From a virus, in the IMG/VR virus record IMGVR_UViG_3300038701_002786, positions 17,499-81,498 of that record: a DNA stretch of 64,000 nucleotides, one strand, 5' to 3'. This document shows, one piece after another, positions 18,745-64,000 of the stretch (the first letter of the stretch is position 1; each line of letters begins with the position of its first letter). A model generated the notes under the pieces. It worked only from the letters and a program-made list of their open reading frames with translations, searched no databases and had not been told where the DNA came from. A program made the translations under genes and the position numbers.

Positions 18745-21348
18745 TCAACCACATCCAGTACTTGCCCCACAATCATGGCACAAATAACAGGAACCGCTGG
18801 GATAGGCCTGGCCACCACAGTTGGAGCACGACTGCATCGGCATCCCCACCTTTGCGGCAATAGTTCCCAAATTCGACACCTCCCGATGGGTGATGATACC
18901 ATCGGCTTTGTCGCCATCTCCCTTGGCGGTCAAAAAGGTGTTTTCAAGCCACTGAGCTACGAAATCAACAATTGAGGTGCAACTCTTGATCTCGCTATCC
19001 ACAATAAACCCTGAAGGCTCAAAGCGCTGAAACCGAGACTTTTCAACGATTGTTTGCAGTGGAACGCCATACTGCAACGCCAGCGAAACCATCTGGGACC
19101 ATTGATCCGCAAAACCTGATATCATGCTGCCTTGCTTCGAGAGCGTGATAAAGATCTCACCAGGAGTACCATCTTCATACAAACCAACATGGATGTAGCC
19201 CTCATGACCTTGAATATCAAACTTTTTCCGTATCGATCTTGTTTGGTTAGGTAACTTGCGTCTTGTTGGCACTTGCTCCCAAACAAGAGATATCACAGCC
19301 CCAGCGGCTCCTTTGATGTTGTCGAGTTCCTTTTTGACAACAGATTCGCCACCTTGATCTTCAAACTCCTCTAAGAGTTCCAGAGGCTGAGAGCCTTTGG
19401 ACCCATTCCGATACAGCGCAAGGCACTTGATGCCACTTTCCCAGGCATATAAAATGGCTTCTTTGATGTCTGCACGAGTAGCTGTTGTGGGCATGTTGAT
19501 GGTTTTGCTGATTGCGCCTGAAACGAACGGTTGAAGTGCTGCCATCATATCAATATGGGCACGCCAACTTAAACAACGCTCTGACCCGAATGATGTATCA
19601 AACACACTCAGATGCTCTTCAGATAAATACGGAGCCCCAACAACATGACCATGTTGCAACACGTAGCCAGCAATTGCCTCACGTTCGTCTTCGGGATACC
19701 CCAAGGCTTCCAGCCCCTTTTCAAAGACATGACACACGATCTTCTCATGGCCACCACCAACGAGTGTTTTCATTGTCACCAAACCGAGAGCAGGTTCGGC
19801 ACCTGTTGTATCACAATCCATCATGAAACTAATCGTGCCAGTCGGCGCGATAACCGTCATCTGCGCATTGCGAAGCATTGGATCTTGTTGATAGTCACCC
19901 AAAACTGCCACCCATGTCTTATGCAACAAATCTTGAGAATTCAACGCCTCAGACACCTCAAAGTGCTGTGACAGGATTCTTTCAACGTGTCCGCTGTTGT
20001 TTTGATAAGCGCCAAAAGAGCCAAGTTCTTTAGCCAAGTCATACGATGTGCTATATGCAAAACAGTGTATGTACGACATGAGTTTTTGGCCAAGACATCT
20101 TCCCTGTTCGCTGTCATATGGAACGCCCATCGACATCAACAGCGCTCCTAGGTTTGTCATACCCAGCCCAATTGTCCGATAACGTTTAGTTGTTTTGCCG
20201 ATTTGTTCCGTTGGATAATCAGCCATATCAACCAAAATATCTTGCATCACAAAAATATCGCGCACCTGACTATACAATTGCATACCATTTTCATACGTAC
20301 CATTGTCCAACAAATTACGCCAAAATATGGCATTCAAACTGGCCAGATTACATGCAGTATTGTTCAAAAAGAGGTATTCACTGCAGGGGTTCGAGGCATC
20401 AATGTTACCGTCGGAAGCGCAGGTGTGCCATCGATTGATCGTGTCAGTAAATTGGACTCCAGGGTCACCACAAACCCAACACGCATCGGCGACCTCATCA
20501 AGCAAATATTGTGACTCCATCTGTTTATCCGTATATCGGATTGAGTGGTTGGCATTCTGAAAGTTGATCGAGTCGTATGCAGAATGCTCTTCAACAAATG
20601 AGTTCGAATACCCCTGACGCATCAACGCTTGGGCTTTCTTTTCCTCGATAGCTTTGCATTCGATAAATTCTTTGGCATCAGGATGCGAGGCGTCCAGGCA
20701 AACCATTTTGGCGGCTCGACGTTTTTTGCCGCCACTTTTGATGGCGCCAGCGCTTGCATCAAATGCTCGCATGAACGAAACCACACCACTGGCACACCCA
20801 CCACCTGAGATGGGCGCTCCCTTGTGCCTGATATTGGACAGGTTGACCCCTGCACCACTGCCTTGCTTAAAGATAAACATCTCATCTCGTTGCAATTGAC
20901 AGATCGACTCCAGCGAATCTTCGACTTCATTGATAAAGCAAGCCGATGCTTGCTGAACCTTTTCCGGCGTCCCAATGTTAAACCAAACAGGTGAGTTAAA
21001 CGCCCATTTTTGCTCCAACAGCGAACGAATCGTGCGCTCTCGAAACGACACACCATTCCTTTCCTCAAAGAACGATTGATACCCATTGGCACTGCCGTAT
21101 TCCATGATCGCGTCGATGACCCGTTCAAAAACCTGGACGATGCTGTGTTCGCGCTCTTCTGTCTCCAACTGACCCCAAAAATATCGGGAGGCACAAATAT
21201 TGACAGCACGCTGGGACCAAGATGCGGGAAACAGCACGTCATCTTGTTCAAACGTGATTTGGCCAGTGGTATGATCTTTGATTTCCGCTCGGCGCAGTGC
21301 CATTGGCACACCATAGGCGGTTTCCACTTGAATTGTGTCGATGCCCAT
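18745..21348 (-). CDS. nrdJ: Adenosylcobalamin-dependent (class II) ribonucleotide reductase
   Basis: This 867-residue enzyme reduces ribonucleotides to deoxyribonucleotides using coenzyme B12, supplying DNA precursors. Visible features are the redox Cys in SACFINEVEDS (Cys137), the catalytic NPCSE loop (Asn320, Cys322, Glu324), the partner Cys333 in NNTACNLASLN, an APTGTISF phosphate loop, and a C-terminal Cys-rich tail ending STGCG that would re-reduce the active site. The N-terminal ATP cone seems reduced. A GTGTAAAC-type operator precedes the gene and a terminator follows. The enzyme needs no separate radical subunit and no oxygen, which suits a phage of a B12-using host. Confidence 0.95.
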   Translation of the reverse strand: MGIDTIQVETAYGVPMALRRAEIKDHTTGQITFEQDDVLFPASWSQRAVNICASRYFWGQLETEEREHSIVQVFERVIDAIMEYGSANGYQSFFEERNGVSFRERTIRSLLEQKWAFNSPVWFNIGTPEKVQQASACFINEVEDSLESICQLQRDEMFIFKQGSGAGVNLSNIRHKGAPISGGGCASGVVSFMRAFDASAGAIKSGGKKRRAAKMVCLDASHPDAKEFIECKAIEEKKAQALMRQGYSNSFVEEHSAYDSINFQNANHSIRYTDKQMESQYLLDEVADACWVCGDPGVQFTDTINRWHTCASDGNIDASNPCSEYLFLNNTACNLASLNAIFWRNLLDNGTYENGMQLYSQVRDIFVMQDILVDMADYPTEQIGKTTKRYRTIGLGMTNLGALLMSMGVPYDSEQGRCLGQKLMSYIHCFAYSTSYDLAKELGSFGAYQNNSGHVERILSQHFEVSEALNSQDLLHKTWVAVLGDYQQDPMLRNAQMTVIAPTGTISFMMDCDTTGAEPALGLVTMKTLVGGGHEKIVCHVFEKGLEALGYPEDEREAIAGYVLQHGHVVGAPYLSEEHLSVFDTSFGSERCLSWRAHIDMMAALQPFVSGAISKTINMPTTATRADIKEAILYAWESGIKCLALYRNGSKGSQPLELLEEFEDQGGESVVKKELDNIKGAAGAVISLVWEQVPTRRKLPNQTRSIRKKFDIQGHEGYIHVGLYEDGTPGEIFITLSKQGSMISGFADQWSQMVSLALQYGVPLQTIVEKSRFQRFEPSGFIVDSEIKSCTSIVDFVAQWLENTFLTAKGDGDKADGIITHREVSNLGTIAAKVGMPMQSCSNCGGQAYPSGSCYLCHDCGASTGCG

Positions 21349-38052: not shown

Positions 38053-39933
38053 TTACCAAAGGACAACTGGTTGGTCTGCCGGTTCGTTTGTTTCGTCGCC
38101 CAAGGCTTCCAGGGTTGAAACTGGGATGCCTAACCCCAAGCCTCCGTAAGAGTTACTGCCCCAGCAGTACACATTGCCATCTTCTACGAGCGCGCATGTT
38201 CTGTAGAACCCAGCTTCAACCTGAACAACTTTTCCCGGCAGCAGCACTGGAAAGGTGGGGTTTCGAGTGCCGGTTGTGTTGCCAAGGCCCAGTGCCCCAT
38301 TGAAATTGTTGCCCCAGCAATACACTCGGCCCGCGAGATCGATTGCGCATGTGTGTTGATAGCCCGCTGACACATCTACAGCACCAAATTGGAGCGGTAC
38401 TTCAATTGGCGGCATTTCAGCTGGCCCATCACCAATGTCATTGTTGTTTCCAATGCCAAGTTGTCCAAATTCATTTCTTCCCCAACACTGGACTTTGTCA
38501 TTGTTGGTGATGATGCATGTATGTTCATATCCTGCATCAATGGTTTTTGCATTGCTGATACTGATTTGGCCCGTGATGGGTTTGTTGGATAAGCCTATAT
38601 TGTCTTGGTGGCCCAGGCCGAGTTCGCCAAACTCGTTTCTGCCCCAACACGTAACATCGCCTGAATTGAATAGAACACACGCATGTTCATCGCCGACTGC
38701 CAATTCTTTGACATTGCTGGCGAGTACGTTGGGTTGTAGCGGATAATCTTCAGCGTTTCTACCTAGGGTCGGGGTATCTTGGTTGAGTCCTAGTTGTCCA
38801 TATTGATTGGAGCCCCAACATGTGACTTGGCCTGTTGTCAAAAGGGCGCACGTAAATAGTTCGCCTTGTTGGACATCTGTTACTGTGGTCGTCAGTTCAA
38901 CAGTTTCAAAGACATCGGAGGTTGAGTCTCCAATTGCTTGCTCACCGTTGACGACGCCTGCTTTGGCTAGTGTATTGGCACCCCAACAGACTGCCTTATC
39001 ATCAGGTGTTACTGCACATGTATTGGCTCCTGTAGATTGGCCCATTCTTTTGCCAAAAACTTTAGCGCTCTTGAGCGGTACGCTCGCCGGAGACTCTCCT
39101 TGTGGGGTAGTGTTCAGCAGAGCAAGTTGACCGGAGTTGTTGCTGCCCCAACACCTTAGTTTGGTGTTGTTCAGGCGTGCGCAGATATGATTGAGGCCCA
39201 TTGCGATTTCAATGGCAGCCAGCCTCCATCCTGCGACGTATTCAGTGATGTATGCGTCTTGACCAGGATGTTGAGTGATTTGGGCTCGGTATAGACGTTG
39301 TTCCCCATTTGGAAGCGCAGTAATGTCGGTGGTTGAGGTCAATAACTGCCATTGGTTGCCATTGTCTGAATATTCAAATGATATAGCCATATTGGTTTCA
39401 AGGCGCCCTTCAATCACGTCACTGGTCAGCCCAGGTCGGTCGAACGTGTCGATCGCTCGGACCACATATTGGTGTTTTTTTGGCTCGATGACTTGGATGT
39501 TATCAAGTCCAATTGCAACATGAGCTCTATATTCACCTTTGGACGCCTTAACCGTTGCTGTTTGAATTGTGCCCAGGTTAGCGTTTTGATCTTTGTATAT
39601 TGTATCCAAGCCAAGATCGAGCCATGTGCCGTTGAGACAATCAGGAGAAGCGTCTTTGCAAATTTGATACTTAGTTGCCCCAGGAATTCCGCGCCATGTC
39701 AGTTGTATATGGCTTGTTGTGGCCTCAAGCTCAACGACAGGCGCTTGGAGCGTAGATGGCAATGTGTCTGCGTCCACATCCGATGTGATGTCATTGGCGG
39801 CGTCAGATGGCATATCGACGGCATCAATCATGTCGATTCTTACATCCCACTCCTCATTGTAGTTGTTGGGGTTCTCAAACAAAGTGCAGCCAGACACCAG
39901 TAGAAATAAAATACCAATTGTAAAAAGCTTCAT
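38053..39933 (-). CDS. RCC1-repeat lipoprotein
   Basis: This 626-residue protein has signal peptide MKLFTIGILFLLVSGC (lipobox VSGC) and an Asp-rich linker. A fibronectin-like region follows (TSHIQLTWRGIPGATKYQI). The C-terminal half has seven RCC1-type blades, each with HxCA and CWGxNxxGQLGLG-like motifs. RCC1 propellers bind proteins, and in Myxococcota they are common on secreted surface proteins. It is last in the minus-strand cargo operon after the TPR/membrane gene. AAGGTGGTGAAT precedes the ATG at 39933. Confidence 0.9.
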   Translation of the reverse strand: MKLFTIGILFLLVSGCTLFENPNNYNEEWDVRIDMIDAVDMPSDAANDITSDVDADTLPSTLQAPVVELEATTSHIQLTWRGIPGATKYQICKDASPDCLNGTWLDLGLDTIYKDQNANLGTIQTATVKASKGEYRAHVAIGLDNIQVIEPKKHQYVVRAIDTFDRPGLTSDVIEGRLETNMAISFEYSDNGNQWQLLTSTTDITALPNGEQRLYRAQITQHPGQDAYITEYVAGWRLAAIEIAMGLNHICARLNNTKLRCWGSNNSGQLALLNTTPQGESPASVPLKSAKVFGKRMGQSTGANTCAVTPDDKAVCWGANTLAKAGVVNGEQAIGDSTSDVFETVELTTTVTDVQQGELFTCALLTTGQVTCWGSNQYGQLGLNQDTPTLGRNAEDYPLQPNVLASNVKELAVGDEHACVLFNSGDVTCWGRNEFGELGLGHQDNIGLSNKPITGQISISNAKTIDAGYEHTCIITNNDKVQCWGRNEFGQLGIGNNNDIGDGPAEMPPIEVPLQFGAVDVSAGYQHTCAIDLAGRVYCWGNNFNGALGLGNTTGTRNPTFPVLLPGKVVQVEAGFYRTCALVEDGNVYCWGSNSYGGLGLGIPVSTLEALGDETNEPADQPVVLW

Positions 39934-39935
39934 AT

Positions 39936-40718
39936 TCACCACCTTGTAATGAATTGTAATGATGTAGGGGTAGCACGTATGGCGACTGAGGTTTCTACAG
40001 TCAACAGATCAGCACTCAACAATAAAACACCACCCACGCCGAACAAGATAGTGCCACCAAGGGCTGTTCGACCACGCCACTGAGCGTTATTGAGTAGCGT
40101 TGCATTGCGTTCGAATTCTGTGGATGAGCGAGAGCTATTAGTTTTTTTCAAGTATTGTTCGACCTCGTTGAGTTCTCGATTCAACCAAAACCCACTCAAT
40201 ACACCGAATCCGATAGACACTATGCCAAGATAACCTGTTGTGCTCATGCGAGATTGCATAGTTTTTGGGCCATGGTTGGTGATAGATACATTTTGTCCAG
40301 CGCAGACGCCTTGCGCGTTTTGACACCTGTTGTCGTTGGTTTGGTTTGTGTTACTGGTTACATTGGGTTTTGTGGGCGCAGTGGTTTGGTCCGAGCCTAG
40401 GAGTTGACGGGCTCGTTTTACACGGGCAGCGCGTTCGGGTGATAGTTTAGTTTGATCGACGAGACCACAAACACGGCGTGCGTCGGTATCGCGTTTGGCA
40501 TCGATGAGCATCATACACCATGAGTAGGCCACGATAGGGCGAGGCGTTGACTTCCATGTGCGCTCGAACAACACATCAGATGAGTTGTACTGGCCATCGC
40601 GAGCCTTTTGAAGTGCTTGTTCATATGTTGTGTCTTTCGCCACTGCCAAGGATGGCCAGAGCATCATAATGGCGATGAGCCATCGTATGCTTCTGTTTTT
40701 GATTTTGTATTGTTCCAT
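39936..40718 (-). CDS. Exported TPR-like protein with membrane segments
   Basis: This 260-residue protein has an N-terminal signal (WLIAIMMLWPSLAVAKD), a TPR-like helical part (YEQALQKARDGQYNSSD; DAKRDTDARRVCGLV) and a Thr/Asn-rich linker. Two hydrophobic spans follow (GYLGIVSIGFGVLSGFW; TILFGVGGVLLLSADLL). The layout is frequent in Myxococcota envelope proteins. Its start lies 55 bases inside the kinase gene, in another frame, suggesting coupled translation. It may connect the kinase with the surface RCC1 protein. That is inference. Confidence 0.75.
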   Translation of the reverse strand: MEQYKIKNRSIRWLIAIMMLWPSLAVAKDTTYEQALQKARDGQYNSSDVLFERTWKSTPRPIVAYSWCMMLIDAKRDTDARRVCGLVDQTKLSPERAARVKRARQLLGSDQTTAPTKPNVTSNTNQTNDNRCQNAQGVCAGQNVSITNHGPKTMQSRMSTTGYLGIVSIGFGVLSGFWLNRELNEVEQYLKKTNSSRSSTEFERNATLLNNAQWRGRTALGGTILFGVGGVLLLSADLLTVETSVAIRATPTSLQFITRW

Positions 40719-41920
40719 TTTAACTTGTTTCCCATTTTAAGTTTTGACGAATTTTGTCTTTTTTTAATTTCTATTGCAAATCGAAGAGTGTGAGCGCTAA
40801 CCAAGTCGGCGCGGATATTCGCCTGTGAGTTTGGGTCGCCGTTGAAAGTGAGTTGGGAGTTGTTGACGCTCCGTTTGATTGAAATAATGTGTGCGTGTGT
40901 TTTCGATTGATTATAGATTCTTGTTGCTATCGAGCCTGCTGAGATTTTGCCATTCAGGTTGTTAAGATTTGTTTGGTAGTCAGGCTCCTTTGGTTGATTT
41001 TGTTCACGTTCGTGAATCTCCAAAATCATCAATGCAGTGACCCAGCCAACCACAACCACAAAGGCAATTGTCATTGAAGTGCCCCGATGTTGTTTAGGCA
41101 CCACGATCGGCTTTATCTCTGTTGGTTTCTCAAGCGAATTGAGCAATTGCTTTGAGTTGGCTGCTCGTTCAAAGAGAACTTTTTTCAGCATTAAATTAAT
41201 GGCGGATTCTAATTGAGGGTCATGGAGATTAACCTCAAGGGATGGTCCATTGTAGAGATTTGACAGAAATCGCTTGGCCACTGAGTTTTTATGCATCTCC
41301 AATGTGGCGCCTTTGCACAGCCAGTAGCAAACCATGCCCAGGCTATACAAATCTGATTGGTGCGTGAGCTTGGTTGGGTCGATGTGTTCAGGGGATGAGC
41401 AGTCCAAGGTGCCCAGTGTTGTTTCATCGGTCGTCAACGGTTGTTGATTTCGCCCCCAAGAAGAAGAGCCAAAATCAATAAGAACGGGCCGCGTGATGTT
41501 GTTATCGCTGAGCATGATATTGCCGAGGGATATGTCACGGTGCAAAACCCCATGTTCCTTCAAGGACTGGAGCACCCCGAGCATTGATGTCAAAAAAGAT
41601 TTCAGTTGAAGTTCTGTAATCACGTTACCGGATTCAAGCCATTCCCATACACTACAGCCTTCAACGTAATTCGTTACAATGTGTAGTTTGTCGTCTTTAT
41701 GGATAACATCCATAAACCGCAGCATTTGTCCGTTGAGACCTTGTAGTTTTGACAACACCTCAATTTCGCGTTTGGCACGAGCCCGTTTCGTTTCGTTTGA
41801 ATTGAAGTCAATTGTTTTTATAGCAACCAGACGACCTTCATCGTCTGATGCTCGCCAGATTTCACCGTTGGCGCCATGACCGATGCTTTCGTGTATCATG
41901 TATGGACCAAGGCGATTCAT
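40664..41920 (-). CDS. Transmembrane Ser/Thr protein kinase (Hanks type)
   Basis: This 418-residue protein has kinase domain residues 1-260: glycine loop GHGANGEIW, VAIK (Lys35), LHRDISLGN (Asp129, Asn134), DFGSS (149-153) and SPEH (176-179) with no obvious missing catalytic residue. One membrane span lies at about 282-300, then a short extracellular tail of about 115 residues with no known sensor domain. It is coupled to the small upstream gene by ATGA. Phage-borne kinases usually alter host physiology or block other phages. The envelope neighbours suggest a surface-signalling role. Confidence 0.92.
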   Translation of the reverse strand: MNRLGPYMIHESIGHGANGEIWRASDDEGRLVAIKTIDFNSNETKRARAKREIEVLSKLQGLNGQMLRFMDVIHKDDKLHIVTNYVEGCSVWEWLESGNVITELQLKSFLTSMLGVLQSLKEHGVLHRDISLGNIMLSDNNITRPVLIDFGSSSWGRNQQPLTTDETTLGTLDCSSPEHIDPTKLTHQSDLYSLGMVCYWLCKGATLEMHKNSVAKRFLSNLYNGPSLEVNLHDPQLESAINLMLKKVLFERAANSKQLLNSLEKPTEIKPIVVPKQHRGTSMTIAFVVVVGWVTALMILEIHEREQNQPKEPDYQTNLNNLNGKISAGSIATRIYNQSKTHAHIISIKRSVNNSQLTFNGDPNSQANIRADLVSAHTLRFAIEIKKRQNSSKLKMGNKLKWNNTKSKTEAYDGSSPL

Positions 41921-50733: not shown

Positions 50734-50805
50734 TGCGGGGTAGAGTAGTGGTCACTCATCAGGTTCATGTCCTGACACACGCTGGTTCGAATCCAGCCCC
50801 CGCAA
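50734..50805 (+). tRNA. tRNA with CAU anticodon (Met or lysidine-type Ile)
   Basis: This 72-base cloverleaf has acceptor TGCGGGG/CCCCGCA, U8-A9, D-stem GAGT/ACTC with loop AGTGGTC, anticodon stem TCAGG/CCTGA with loop TTCATGT (CAU at 50766-50768), variable loop CACAC, and T-arm GCTGG-TTCGAAT-CCAGC with discriminator A. CCA is not encoded. The anticodon stem lacks the GGG/CCC of initiators, so elongator Met or tRNA-Ile2 is likely. G at position 37 is unusual for a CAU tRNA. Confidence 0.85.
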
Positions 50806-50827
50806 CTACTACTTTTTGAGACAAAAC

Positions 50828-59152: not shown

Positions 59153-59660
59153 TCTTTCGGTCTTCATTGACCCCAATGATCTCAAAGAAGCCAAACGTGC
59201 AACCAAAGCTTTCCAAGTGGTGCTTGGAGATCCTGAAAACACACACCGCGTTGTGTTGCCCGGTTTCTTTTTGGAACACATGAGGTTGCAGTTTGCCACT
59301 GATGGACGACATGGTGGAAAGCAGTGGGCAAACTACTCCAGCGAGCGCAAATACGCTGCATTTAAAATGGCGGTTGCTGGACACTTGAGGATTCTCGAAT
59401 TTGGGTCAGGACCAAACGCCAGACTTAAACGATCTTTGACCGAATCTGGACACCCAGAACATGCCTTTCAGGCTCGGGGTGATTATGCAGTGATCGGTTC
59501 GCGAGTGCCTTATGCTCAAGATGTTACCGAGACACGCACCAATCGGTTTGGTGAGCGAAGTACTGGCCGGGATGTGCTCGCGATGACGTCAAGGCAAGAA
59601 GAGGATTTGTTACGCAAATTCGCTGATGAATATGACCGACGTATGGAGCGATTGTTTTGA
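59142..59660 (+). CDS. Phage virion morphogenesis / tail completion protein
   Basis: This 172-residue protein has GFFLEHMRLQFATDGRHGGK, WANYSSERKYAAFK, LTESGHPEHAFQ and YAVIGSRVPYAQ, the series seen in Mu gpG-like virion morphogenesis proteins, which complete the tail top. It overlaps the upstream gene by 11 bases. Confidence 0.85.
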   Translation: MTFDLSVFIDPNDLKEAKRATKAFQVVLGDPENTHRVVLPGFFLEHMRLQFATDGRHGGKQWANYSSERKYAAFKMAVAGHLRILEFGSGPNARLKRSLTESGHPEHAFQARGDYAVIGSRVPYAQDVTETRTNRFGERSTGRDVLAMTSRQEEDLLRKFADEYDRRMERLF

Positions 59661-60324: not shown

Positions 60325-61317
60325 ATGCCAATCCAAATCCCTTCTGACATTGGTTCCTTGGCCGGTGCTGTTGAGAGTGTCTATGGCGTTGACCCGGGAG
60401 CAACTCGGGCCGTTGCGTTGACTCAAAGACCGGGTGAAGAGCACAACGATGCCTTTCCTGAAAAGGTCAAATACCGAACCACACGCAACACTCCATCATC
60501 TGATCGCCAGCATATCGATTTGGGTCTGACCGTCAATGCAGTCGTCACTCAAATGGAAGACGTTGTTGGAGGTTATGGAGACCACCACCCTGTGTTTATC
60601 GCGATGGGGTTGCGCGTCACAGGAAATGGAGTTGCTGCGGGAACCGGTAACTTTATCACCTATGGACCTCAAAGTTCGAACTTTGGGTCTGCGACTTTCA
60701 TCAATACAGATATTGCTGACAATGGCCAGTTGTCACAAACAAAATATCTTGGCACACGAGGGTTGGGTGATTTGGCATTTGACCCTGACCAGCCTATCAT
60801 TGCCAATCTCAACAGCCGGTCCAAGCATAATTTTGCTGAACCATTTGCAGCTGGGTCTTTGCCCACTGATAGTGGGTTGGATGATGTAGATGCAAAGTGC
60901 TTTGTTTGTACATTTGATGGCAACGTTGTTGAAATCGTTCAGTTTTCAGTCAATTTGAACAACGAACAGGTGACGAGTACCGTTGACATCAGAACATGCA
61001 ACAGCGGCGTGGACGAGATTGAGATCAAAAACGGTACACCCACTGTTGAGATCCGACTCAAGGCGTCAATCGAGCACATTGATGGTTTGGGCGTCAACGA
61101 TTGGGTCAAACAAGCTCACGACACAGACCTGGATGTTGCGTTTCAAGCCCGAAGTGATCATGGCGGGCAGCGCTTTCAGTTTTCCGCGCCCAAAATGAGA
61201 ATCGAAGGGTTCACCAAAGAACCAGGTGACGGAGATTACTTGGTTTGGGTGCTTTCTTGTCGTCTTCAAGATGTGTTGGGCGATGACTCCTTTGAAATTC
61301 GTCAAGAAGTCCTTTGA
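60325..61317 (+). CDS. Major tail tube protein
   Basis: This 330-residue protein starts MPIQIPSDIGSLAGAVESVY, has PEKVKYRTTRNTPSSDRQ, then beta-rich segments, ending FTKEPGDGDYLVWVLSC. The position before the frameshifted chaperones and tape measure is the tail tube slot of siphoviruses. Its length suggests an extra surface domain. Confidence 0.75.
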   Translation: MPIQIPSDIGSLAGAVESVYGVDPGATRAVALTQRPGEEHNDAFPEKVKYRTTRNTPSSDRQHIDLGLTVNAVVTQMEDVVGGYGDHHPVFIAMGLRVTGNGVAAGTGNFITYGPQSSNFGSATFINTDIADNGQLSQTKYLGTRGLGDLAFDPDQPIIANLNSRSKHNFAEPFAAGSLPTDSGLDDVDAKCFVCTFDGNVVEIVQFSVNLNNEQVTSTVDIRTCNSGVDEIEIKNGTPTVEIRLKASIEHIDGLGVNDWVKQAHDTDLDVAFQARSDHGGQRFQFSAPKMRIEGFTKEPGDGDYLVWVLSCRLQDVLGDDSFEIRQEVL

Positions 61318-61375
61318 TGCTTTTTGACATGGTTCTCAATTTACTCAATAAAAATCTCACCAAAGAGTGTCTGTT

Positions 61376-61990
61376 ATGTTTGAATTCGATCAGAAAAAGT
61401 ATGTCGTTTCGTTGACGAAAGAAGAAAAGGCCATGGAAGACAACGAACGCCGCACTGTCTTCTATGTACCAATGACTGGTAAACAATTCGCCATGTACCA
61501 ACGTCAGGCAAACAAATTGGCTCGCAGGGTCTCAAGGCTTCAAGCCAATTTGTCTGGTCTTCTTGAAGAACGGGACGCGCTGGAGGTAGCGGCTGAAAAT
61601 GCCTCGGAAGAAGGTGACGTTGATCGAGTGCGAGAACTCAACCGAGAATTGGATAGATGCGAGTCCAAGATCGAAGACAAGCATGAAGAAGTTGAACAGG
61701 CTCAAGCTAAATCAATGGACCTACAGACCAGCACAATTCTCCAGTTCATTAGAGGGTTTGCCAATTTCCCTACAAAAAAGAAATGGGACAAGCTCTCTAC
61801 GGAAGAGCAGGGTCAGTTGTTGGATTACCTTTCCCCGGGTTTTCACAATATGGAGGCTCAGTCTCAGTTGTTTACTGAGATTATCGGAGGTTTGGAAGAC
61901 GAAGAAAAAAAGCCTTCCGAGGACACCTCGAACGAATCTATCTCAAACGAGTCCGAAACAGTCTCATCCCTCGAAAATATCGAGGCCTAG
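61376..61990 (+). CDS. Tail assembly chaperone (gpG-like)
   Basis: This 204-residue protein has a helical ECESKIEDKHEEVEQ-type coiled coil and an acidic tail. It covers tape measure protein during tail assembly. Near the end, at 61906-61912, lies the slippery heptamer A-AAA-AAG in frame, from which ribosomes can shift -1 into the next frame, as in lambda gpG/gpGT. Confidence 0.82.
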   Translation: MFEFDQKKYVVSLTKEEKAMEDNERRTVFYVPMTGKQFAMYQRQANKLARRVSRLQANLSGLLEERDALEVAAENASEEGDVDRVRELNRELDRCESKIEDKHEEVEQAQAKSMDLQTSTILQFIRGFANFPTKKKWDKLSTEEQGQLLDYLSPGFHNMEAQSQLFTEIIGGLEDEEKKPSEDTSNESISNESETVSSLENIEA

Positions 61991-62367
61991 ACCATGAAGG
62001 TCTGGCCTCAGAGTTGGCACATGAACTGAGTTTTCAGCAAACCGGAAAGCGTCCACATAAATTCTGCGGGACGATTTACGTGCCATGCAAACGATGCGAG
62101 GCCAATTACGACAGAGTGCTCAAGCTTGAGAAAAGCGAAATTTTGAGGCGACTCGGTGTCGACTTGCCAGATGCTGATGATGAAGTGTCCGATGAGCAAG
62201 TATCCTGGCTCAACTATTACTACCATACGTGGCTGAGGGGTTCAGACCCTCAACGTGTCCAAGAGCAACCCAAATGGATGTGCGATCTGTTTGAGATTGG
62301 TCAAGAAATCGAAGCGACTGCCCATGCTGAGATTTTGGAGGAACAAGCCAAAAAGAACAAAAAGTGA
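61912..62367 (+). CDS. Frameshift extension of tail chaperone (gpT-like)
   Basis: This is the -1 frame after the A-AAA-AAG slip. It stays open without stop to 62367, giving a fusion of about 330 residues. The extension contains ELAHELSFQQTGKRPHKF, WLNYYYHTWLRG and a Lys-rich end. It has no good start of its own (only a TTG at 62014 with no ribosome site), so expression as a fusion is expected. The tape measure gene follows nine bases on. Confidence 0.8.
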   Translation, partial: AFRGHLERIYLKRVRNSLIPRKYRGLDHEGLASELAHELSFQQTGKRPHKFCGTIYVPCKRCEANYDRVLKLEKSEILRRLGVDLPDADDEVSDEQVSWLNYYYHTWLRGSDPQRVQEQPKWMCDLFEIGQEIEATAHAEILEEQAKKNKK

Positions 62368-62376
62368 GTTTGCTGC

Positions 62377-64000
62377 ATGAGCCGCCGTCAACGGGGGTTG
62401 AGGTATACGGTAGAGGCTCGTGGGAAGAACCTTGAGGTTCTTGACCAGGCCCATAGTAAAATCGACGGGCTTAATGAACAGGCCAAGATTCAAGCTCGTC
62501 GTTCTCGTGCGTTGGCCAAAGCAAACGAAAAGCTCCAATCCAGTTACAAAGGATTGCCCGAGGTCTTGGGTAAAATCCAAAACGGACTCGGGGCTCAAAA
62601 TGTAGTCATGGGACGCGTTGCTGAACAGCAAGAACGCGTTGTCCAAAGCCAGAAGAAGTTTAAGCAGGGTCAAGAGAAACTCAACAATAGGTTGGGTGCT
62701 TCTGAGCGTGCATTGGGGCGAACCCAGACGTCACTGGGTGGGATAGCCCAGGGACTCATTGCAGGCGCACGCGCTGCTGGTCCGTATGGTCTCGCGGTTG
62801 CTGCTGCGGCTGAAGCCAGTCGGATCTTCTTCAGGGTTATTGACCTTGGCGTTGTGTCGATTCAGGCGCAAGCCAAGGCATTGGTAAATTCCATCAAGAT
62901 TTCTGCTGAATTTCAGCAAGAAATTGCTCGTGTTGATGCACTTGCTGGTGGTTTGCCGGGGACTTTTGAAAAACTCAGTCGAGCAGCTCTCGACAGTGGC
63001 GAGGCGACTCTTTTTACCGGTAGGCAATCTGCCGAAGGTCTAAGAGAGATTGTTCAAGCTGGTTTTGATGCCAACAAGGCTATCGCGGCCTTGCCGGGTA
63101 CGTTGCAATTGGCTGGGGCGGGGATGATCTCCCTGTCCAAAGCTGCTGACATCTCAACCAACATCTTGTCAGGCTATAACCTGCAAGTCGACCAATTGGG
63201 TCGAGTCAATGACGTGTTGGTCCAGGCTACGACAAAGTCGAACACGAATATCCAGCAACTGGGTACAGGATTCTCCTATGTCGCTGGTGTTGCAGCGTCG
63301 ACCAATCAGCAGTTCGAAAACACAGCATCGTTACTCGGCGTCCTGGCGAACTCGGGCATTAAAGGCTCAAAAGCCGGTCGAGCCGTTGCAAACGCGTTGC
63401 AACGCGTCATCAAGCCCACAGCCGAAGGGCAGGCGCTTTTTGAGAAGTACAATGTATCTTTGCGCGACTATGCCGGGCGTTCGCGTCAATTGATTGACAT
63501 TCTGCGCGATCTTGAAAAGGCAGGTGCATCCAGCGCGGATGTATTGTCAATTTTTGGGTCTGTAGCCGGTCGTTCAATTGTAACGGTGCTCAACCAAGGA
63601 ACCAAAGCTGTCGATAAGATGGCTGTCTCGCTCAATTCGGCCAAGGGACGAGCTGCTGAATTCCAGCGACAGGTGCAAGATACTCTTGCTGCACAGGTGA
63701 AAATCCTTGAGTCCTCGTTTGAGCGACTCAATACAGAGGTAGGGGATAGATTTCAGGACACGTTCAAAGGCGCCACCAAGGTGCTCATTACGAACGTTCA
63801 GGCGCTGTCGCGAAACACTGAGTTGCTCGATCGTTTTACTCAGGTTGGACGGGACGTTGTGATTGTGGCCGCCAATATATTGGATGCTGCAAGTTTGGTT
63901 GCGAAGCCCTTCTTTGAGTTGGGCGGCGCCGCTCTTGCGCTTGCAACAATCCTTGATACTGGCAATGACAATTTACTCGAATACGTAAAAACGTTTTTGT
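62377..64000 (+). CDS. Tail tape measure protein (partial, 3' end outside window)
   Basis: The 541 codons visible start MSRRQRGLRYTVEARGKNLE. Helical coiled-coil repeats (NEQAKIQARRSRALAKANEK) are followed by the TP901-type core: LRDLEKAGASSADVLSIFGS, VAGRSIVTVLNQGTKAV and GVAASTNQQFENTASLLGVL. It sets tail length and helps DNA pass. The frame is open to the window edge. Confidence 0.9.
   Translation, partial: MSRRQRGLRYTVEARGKNLEVLDQAHSKIDGLNEQAKIQARRSRALAKANEKLQSSYKGLPEVLGKIQNGLGAQNVVMGRVAEQQERVVQSQKKFKQGQEKLNNRLGASERALGRTQTSLGGIAQGLIAGARAAGPYGLAVAAAAEASRIFFRVIDLGVVSIQAQAKALVNSIKISAEFQQEIARVDALAGGLPGTFEKLSRAALDSGEATLFTGRQSAEGLREIVQAGFDANKAIAALPGTLQLAGAGMISLSKAADISTNILSGYNLQVDQLGRVNDVLVQATTKSNTNIQQLGTGFSYVAGVAASTNQQFENTASLLGVLANSGIKGSKAGRAVANALQRVIKPTAEGQALFEKYNVSLRDYAGRSRQLIDILRDLEKAGASSADVLSIFGSVAGRSIVTVLNQGTKAVDKMAVSLNSAKGRAAEFQRQVQDTLAAQVKILESSFERLNTEVGDRFQDTFKGATKVLITNVQALSRNTELLDRFTQVGRDVVIVAANILDAASLVAKPFFELGGAALALATILDTGNDNLLEYVKTFL

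Follow-up and report, generated by a model that had tools for sequence, protein, structure and literature searches.

The window analyzed here comprises the final 64,000 bases of an 81,498-base IMG/VR virus record, and its right end carries the structural module of a tailed phage. Genes for a terminase (51871), a portal (53451), a protease (54833), and a capsid protein (55702) are recognized, and several small genes lie 3' of the capsid gene, followed by a tail protein candidate (60325), two overlapping frames that we call G and T, and a tape measure gene (Table 1). A tRNA-Met(CAT) gene is found just 5' of this module, at 50734-50806 (+); a tRNA-Met also lies upstream of the terminase in Rhizobium phage RHph_TM3_3_3, the first-listed match of the terminase. 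The identity of the tape measure gene, which continues past the end of both the window and the record, is clear. The tail protein is assigned from its position and a weak match, and searches of Pfam and NCBIfam with this protein gave no match. The G/T pair occupies the location typical of gpG/gpGT-type pairs, between the major tail protein gene and the tape measure gene.

Table 1. Features of the G/T locus, in window coordinates.
Feature	Position	Strand	Basis or remark
Candidate major tail protein gene	60325..61317	+	Position; weak phrog_290 match (minor tail protein, E 1.6e-4)
G, zero-frame product, 204 aa	61376..61990	+	Open frame; ATG 61376, start in ORF list GTG 61367
SD-like element GGAGGU	61886..61891	+	14 nt 5' of heptamer; -8.7 kcal/mol pairing with 16S 3' end
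Slippery heptamer A_AAA_AAG	61906..61912	+	In frame of G, near G end, then CC
T, -1 frame extension, 151 aa	61912..62367	+	C-terminal part of predicted G-T fusion (~330 aa)
Short hairpin CGAGG-ACA-CCUCG	61918..61930	+	5 nt 3' of heptamer; -6.3 kcal/mol
Strong hairpin over G stop codon	61982..62009	+	-20.1 kcal/mol for 61979-62010; covers weak SD of TTG 62014
Tape measure gene	62377..64000	+	TIGR01760, E 1e-54; phrog_1533, E 2.7e-73

The codon usage of G is coding-like on both sides of the slippery heptamer (score 0.28 upstream, 0.32 downstream). The open stretch of the -1 frame extends from 61879 to 62367, in agreement with the claim of the first-pass annotation that it stays open through the end of the next frame, and it ends 9 bases before the tape measure gene. 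T scores 0.18 at 62014-62364, which is coding-like, and the two other frames are negative there. In the overlap 3' of the site, the zero-frame tail (61913-61987) is clearly coding, with a score of 0.32. The -1 frame in the overlap is borderline at 0.046: of 360 open off-frame stretches, 8% score at least this high, and 6% of in-frame stretches score as low.

Profile searches of Pfam, NCBIfam, and PHROG returned only weak, coiled-coil-type, or unnamed matches for G, none above the curated cutoff, and in the libraries searched no known chaperone family matched either G or T. Such a match does not define the group: excerpts of PMC5009743 describe the G-T frameshift as widely conserved among long-tailed phages whose sequences show little similarity. 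The phages collection contained no match to G, T, or the tail protein, and single-sequence scans of viral contigs with G, T, the tail protein, the terminase, and the capsid protein gave no usable relative; loci L002-L005 were rejected as relatives, as only 25 capsid residues match. Structure models of both products are of low confidence (mean pLDDT 65.6 for G and 53.6 for T).

Several features elsewhere in the record were also recorded. An RCC1-repeat protein adjoins a protein with a Ser/Thr protein kinase domain at 38053-41920 (-), and a class II (B12-dependent) ribonucleotide reductase with a TSCPD domain is encoded at 18745-21348 (-). The open frames 40664-41920 and 39936-40718 (-) overlap, and the second has its own ATG. 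At 40733 (-), an in-frame GGGAAAC is present, from which a -1 reading continues 725 bases beyond the first stop. A search for PhoH in the record itself recovered only the terminase.

The slippery heptamer and the elements around it

As in gpG/gpGT-type pairs, the overlap of G and T holds an in-frame slippery heptamer. The first-pass annotation had placed A_AAA_AAG in the frame of G at this site, and the G-frame codons, GAA GAA AAA AAG CCT, confirm it. This heptamer is described as much more shift-prone, and CC as the most shift-prone dinucleotide 3' of it in an E. coli study (PMC5009743, in the portions cited). Chance occurrence was estimated from a crude gene set (90 genes; 61,890 coding bases or about 20,630 codons). 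In this set, four copies of A_AAA_AAG are in frame, the site at 61906 counted, and X_XXY_YYZ (Y = A or T) occurs in frame 37 times; from these counts, 0.007 and 0.066 occurrences, respectively, are expected in the 37 codons of the overlap. Half of the four A_AAA_AAG sites fall in G. The second one, at 61774-61780 (+), has no SD-like element and is followed by AAA, whereas CC follows the heptamer at 61906. A -1 slip at the second site would lead to a stop at 61876-61878 after 32 codons.

Upstream of the heptamer lies the Shine-Dalgarno (SD)-like GGAGGU. Its pairing energy, calculated against the 16S 3' tail, is matched by 0.30% of 3672 in-frame control positions in 13 genes. For SD-like elements that stimulate -1 frameshifting, a spacing range of 9-14 nt is given in the relevant part of PMC5009743. 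The short hairpin 3' of the heptamer was considered as strong evidence and dropped, as it is ordinary by both controls and shuffles. It is weak evidence because equally good folds occur at 30% of the 1500 control positions and for 144 out of 200 shuffled versions of 61916-61975. Among 200 shuffles of the longer stretch 61913-62013, only 4 fold as well as the native sequence; this better folding is due to the strong hairpin spanning the G stop codon, ~70 nt from the site. A search of 61300-62500 for RNA families gave no match.

Related tape measure loci

Relatives were obtained through the tape measure. A single-sequence scan of viral contigs with this protein led to L007 and L008, and a tape measure alignment search led to 533 confirmed loci, of which the best 80 (L013-L092) were taken. 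L013, an 82,837-base record, is the nearest relative among the matches listed. Its tape measure is 48% identical to that of the window over 363 residues, and identities of 30% for the tail protein, 31% for T, and 26% for the gene at 59657 are found. The relative of the tail protein lies directly upstream of L013 G; the L013 portal, located elsewhere in the record, shows 45% and 32% identity over two pieces. The window terminase has no match in the L013 record. T of L013 lies in the -1 frame of L013 G and is homologous to T of the window (E 2e-13, among the loci collected). The two G proteins are not significantly alike (best E 0.55); both contain G-L-x-x-E-E-K-K at the site, and both genes have an SD-like element 14 nt upstream, the one in L013 being weak (-2.7 kcal/mol). 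Searches with L013 T gave no match in the phages or plasmids collections, and a T alignment found no relative among genome contigs. L096 was rejected, the match being short, in another frame, and across a long unrelated open frame; none of the window proteins match L096 at E 0.001.

The L013 heptamer is A_AAA_AAA, embedded in a run of nine A and beginning 10 bases before the G stop codon; the run at the window site is seven A (61905-61911). RNA polymerase might slip on such runs, so that part of the mRNA itself would be in the T frame. Both A-runs speak for this explanation, as does the naming of runs of more than seven A for transcriptional slippage in sections of PMC3711429. However, the run here is only seven, and A_AAA_AAG with an upstream SD-like element is, as far as the cited portions of PMC5009743 and PMC3711429 go, a ribosomal signal of the dnaX type. 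We regard polymerase slippage as very unlikely.

The survey covered 82 loci, namely L007, L008, and L013-L092. Four were left out because their upstream sequence was shorter than 700 bases, and a 550-base key identified 11 as duplicates, leaving 67 distinct loci. L009-L012 were fetched as comparators outside the 67; L010-L012 served as rows of the tape measure alignment and L009 for gene order only. A pair was defined as a first frame of at least 70 codons and an overlapping second frame of at least 50, before the tape measure gene. A -1 pair is present in 65 of the 67 loci and a +1 pair in 18; some loci offer two or more candidate pairs, and these counts are uncorrected for kinship. Among the 65 -1 pairs, 50 contain an in-phase heptamer (Y = A or T), as compared to 6 and 7 in the other two phases. 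Counted by site, 57 heptamers fall in the reading phase versus 8 and 8 in the others, over 1608, 1546, and 1546 positions, respectively. L008 is a -1 pair that lacks a heptamer. The layout seen in the window is kept in L013 and in most of these loci, as is characteristic of gpG/gpGT-type pairs. SD-like elements of -4 kcal/mol or better accompany 8 of the 57 related sites against a control rate of 5.3%; since they are only slightly commoner there, the strong element of the window is not common to the group. The G proteins of four loci were scanned; phrog_344 (tail assembly chaperone) matches two of them, from L022 and L027. G of L013 and of L007 gave no phrog_344 match, and in these two loci neither G nor T matches a named family.

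These data also bear on the possibility that G and T are a single gene, divided by a sequencing or assembly error in the A-run. Homopolymers are error-prone, and the sequence is an IMG/VR virus record. Against an error stand the separate L013 record, in which the two frames stand in an identical -1 relation at the corresponding position, the recurrence of the -1 pair across the surveyed loci, and the coding-like score of the zero-frame tail at 61913-61987. Such an error is extremely improbable.

Candidate start sites for T

The first-pass annotation held that the frame of T has no start of its own. This is true of ATG and GTG, the first of which occur at 62278 and 62080, respectively, but a TTG candidate is present at 62014, 23 bases 3' of the G stop codon. 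It is the only early candidate, and the second frame overlaps G in -1 without a good start, a further feature of gpG/gpGT-type pairs. T could nevertheless be a separate gene initiated at TTG 62014 (ATG 2703 in L013), perhaps coupled to the G stop codon, with the heptamer being incidental. The proximity of the TTG to the G stop codon is in keeping with this arrangement, whereas its SD is weak (AGGU, -2.5 kcal/mol, 12 nt upstream), and the GGU lies in the hairpin over the G stop with a predicted pairing probability figure of 0.99. The weak SD says little alone, because the same measure finds no SD at 7 of 16 other starts checked, G and the tape measure gene included, although some of these starts are possibly miscalled; it is therefore compatible with a start. 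The gene at 59657 is itself called from a TTG. Because other starts in the module also lack an SD, the frameshift reading is held slightly less firmly.

The comparison with L013 also favors a separate start to some extent. Homology between the two T proteins is clear 3' of the TTG, where the alignment score is reached in 0 of 2000 shuffles. The residues before the TTG are not significantly similar to those of L013 (418 of 2000 shuffles reach the score; 32 of 2000 for the first 40 residues). In L013, ATG 2703 has AAGGAG 9 nt upstream and lies about two codons before the place in the alignment that matches TTG 62014. This ATG with a good SD is a real caution, and the main one, against the frameshift reading. 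Independent initiation as the sole source of T leaves unaccounted for a heptamer of which only 0.007 occurrences are expected in the overlap, as well as the phase-specific heptamers in the related pairs, and we consider it unlikely. The fusion and a free T could both be made. In that case, an SD-stimulated G-T fusion would coexist with free T from TTG 62014 (ATG 2703 in L013), and the hairpin over the stop codon would set the balance; we judge this two-form arrangement quite unlikely.

Proposed mechanism and relation to known systems

Gene order, the heptamer, the SD-like element, and the shared layout all agree, and together they indicate a gpG/gpGT-type frameshift, the mechanism that the first-pass annotation had named. 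By far the best reading is that G and T are a tail assembly chaperone pair read via programmed -1 ribosomal frameshifting, for which we estimate a probability of roughly 0.88. Most ribosomes would read G to its stop codon at 61988-61990. Some would be anchored through base pairing between GGAGGU and the 16S 3' end, the downstream hairpin perhaps slowing them as well, and would slip by -1 on A_AAA_AAG, with tRNA-Lys re-pairing from AAA/AAG to AAA/AAA. The slipped ribosomes would then continue in the T frame to 62367, affording the G-T fusion. By analogy with lambda, G may bind the tape measure protein and T may recruit the major tail protein. The analysis demonstrates the sequence elements, the reading frames, the homology of T with L013 T, and the enrichment of heptamers in one phase across loci; from these we infer that slippage occurs, and its efficiency, the effect of the stimulators, and the chaperone role are likewise inferred.

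This assignment carries a textbook recoding event over to a phage in which neither G nor T matched a named family of the libraries searched. It also adds a case in which the SD element is strong and dnaX-like, and the second, identical heptamer in G serves as a built-in comparison. The main use of the result is in annotation, as a gene caller would start T at TTG 62014 or miss the fusion.

A conserved frameshift in the tail assembly genes of dsDNA phages was reportedly described by Xu, Hendrix, and Duda in 2004. G and T differ from that conserved system, and from lambda gpG/gpGT, in having no family match. The arrangement is otherwise like that of lambda as outlined in PMC5009743: a location between tail protein and tape measure, a zero-frame product with a -1 extension, and a second frame that terminates just short of the tape measure gene. 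The overlap 3' of the site is 78 bases here, whereas 26 of the 67 loci (near-duplicates included) have a heptamer that starts no more than 13 bases ahead of the G stop codon. Frameshifting was measured at 6% and 7% for two phage tail chaperone genes (PMC3711429, in part), and a section of PMC10885494, on PRFect, reports that 3679 SEA-PHAGES genomes carry 2397 tail assembly chaperones annotated as joined.

The site sequence itself is already published for other phages. AAAAAAG is predicted at the frameshifted tail genes gp55/gp56 of Burkholderia phage AH2, beside the tape measure gene as here, and the excerpted text of PMC3483164 lists other phages with the same sequence. The AH2 frameshift is likewise a prediction; a possible stem-loop is cited for it, whereas the SD-like element is the stronger signal in the window. 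The E. coli dnaX signal also combines A_AAA_AAG, an upstream SD-like stimulator, and a downstream hairpin (PMC5009743 and PMC3711429, in the parts cited). It belongs to a different gene; the hairpin here is short and not unusual, and the 14-nt SD spacing falls at the limit of the 9-14 range. In kind, the G/T pair is ordinary; its novelty is limited to being a divergent member whose SD-like element is unusually strong.
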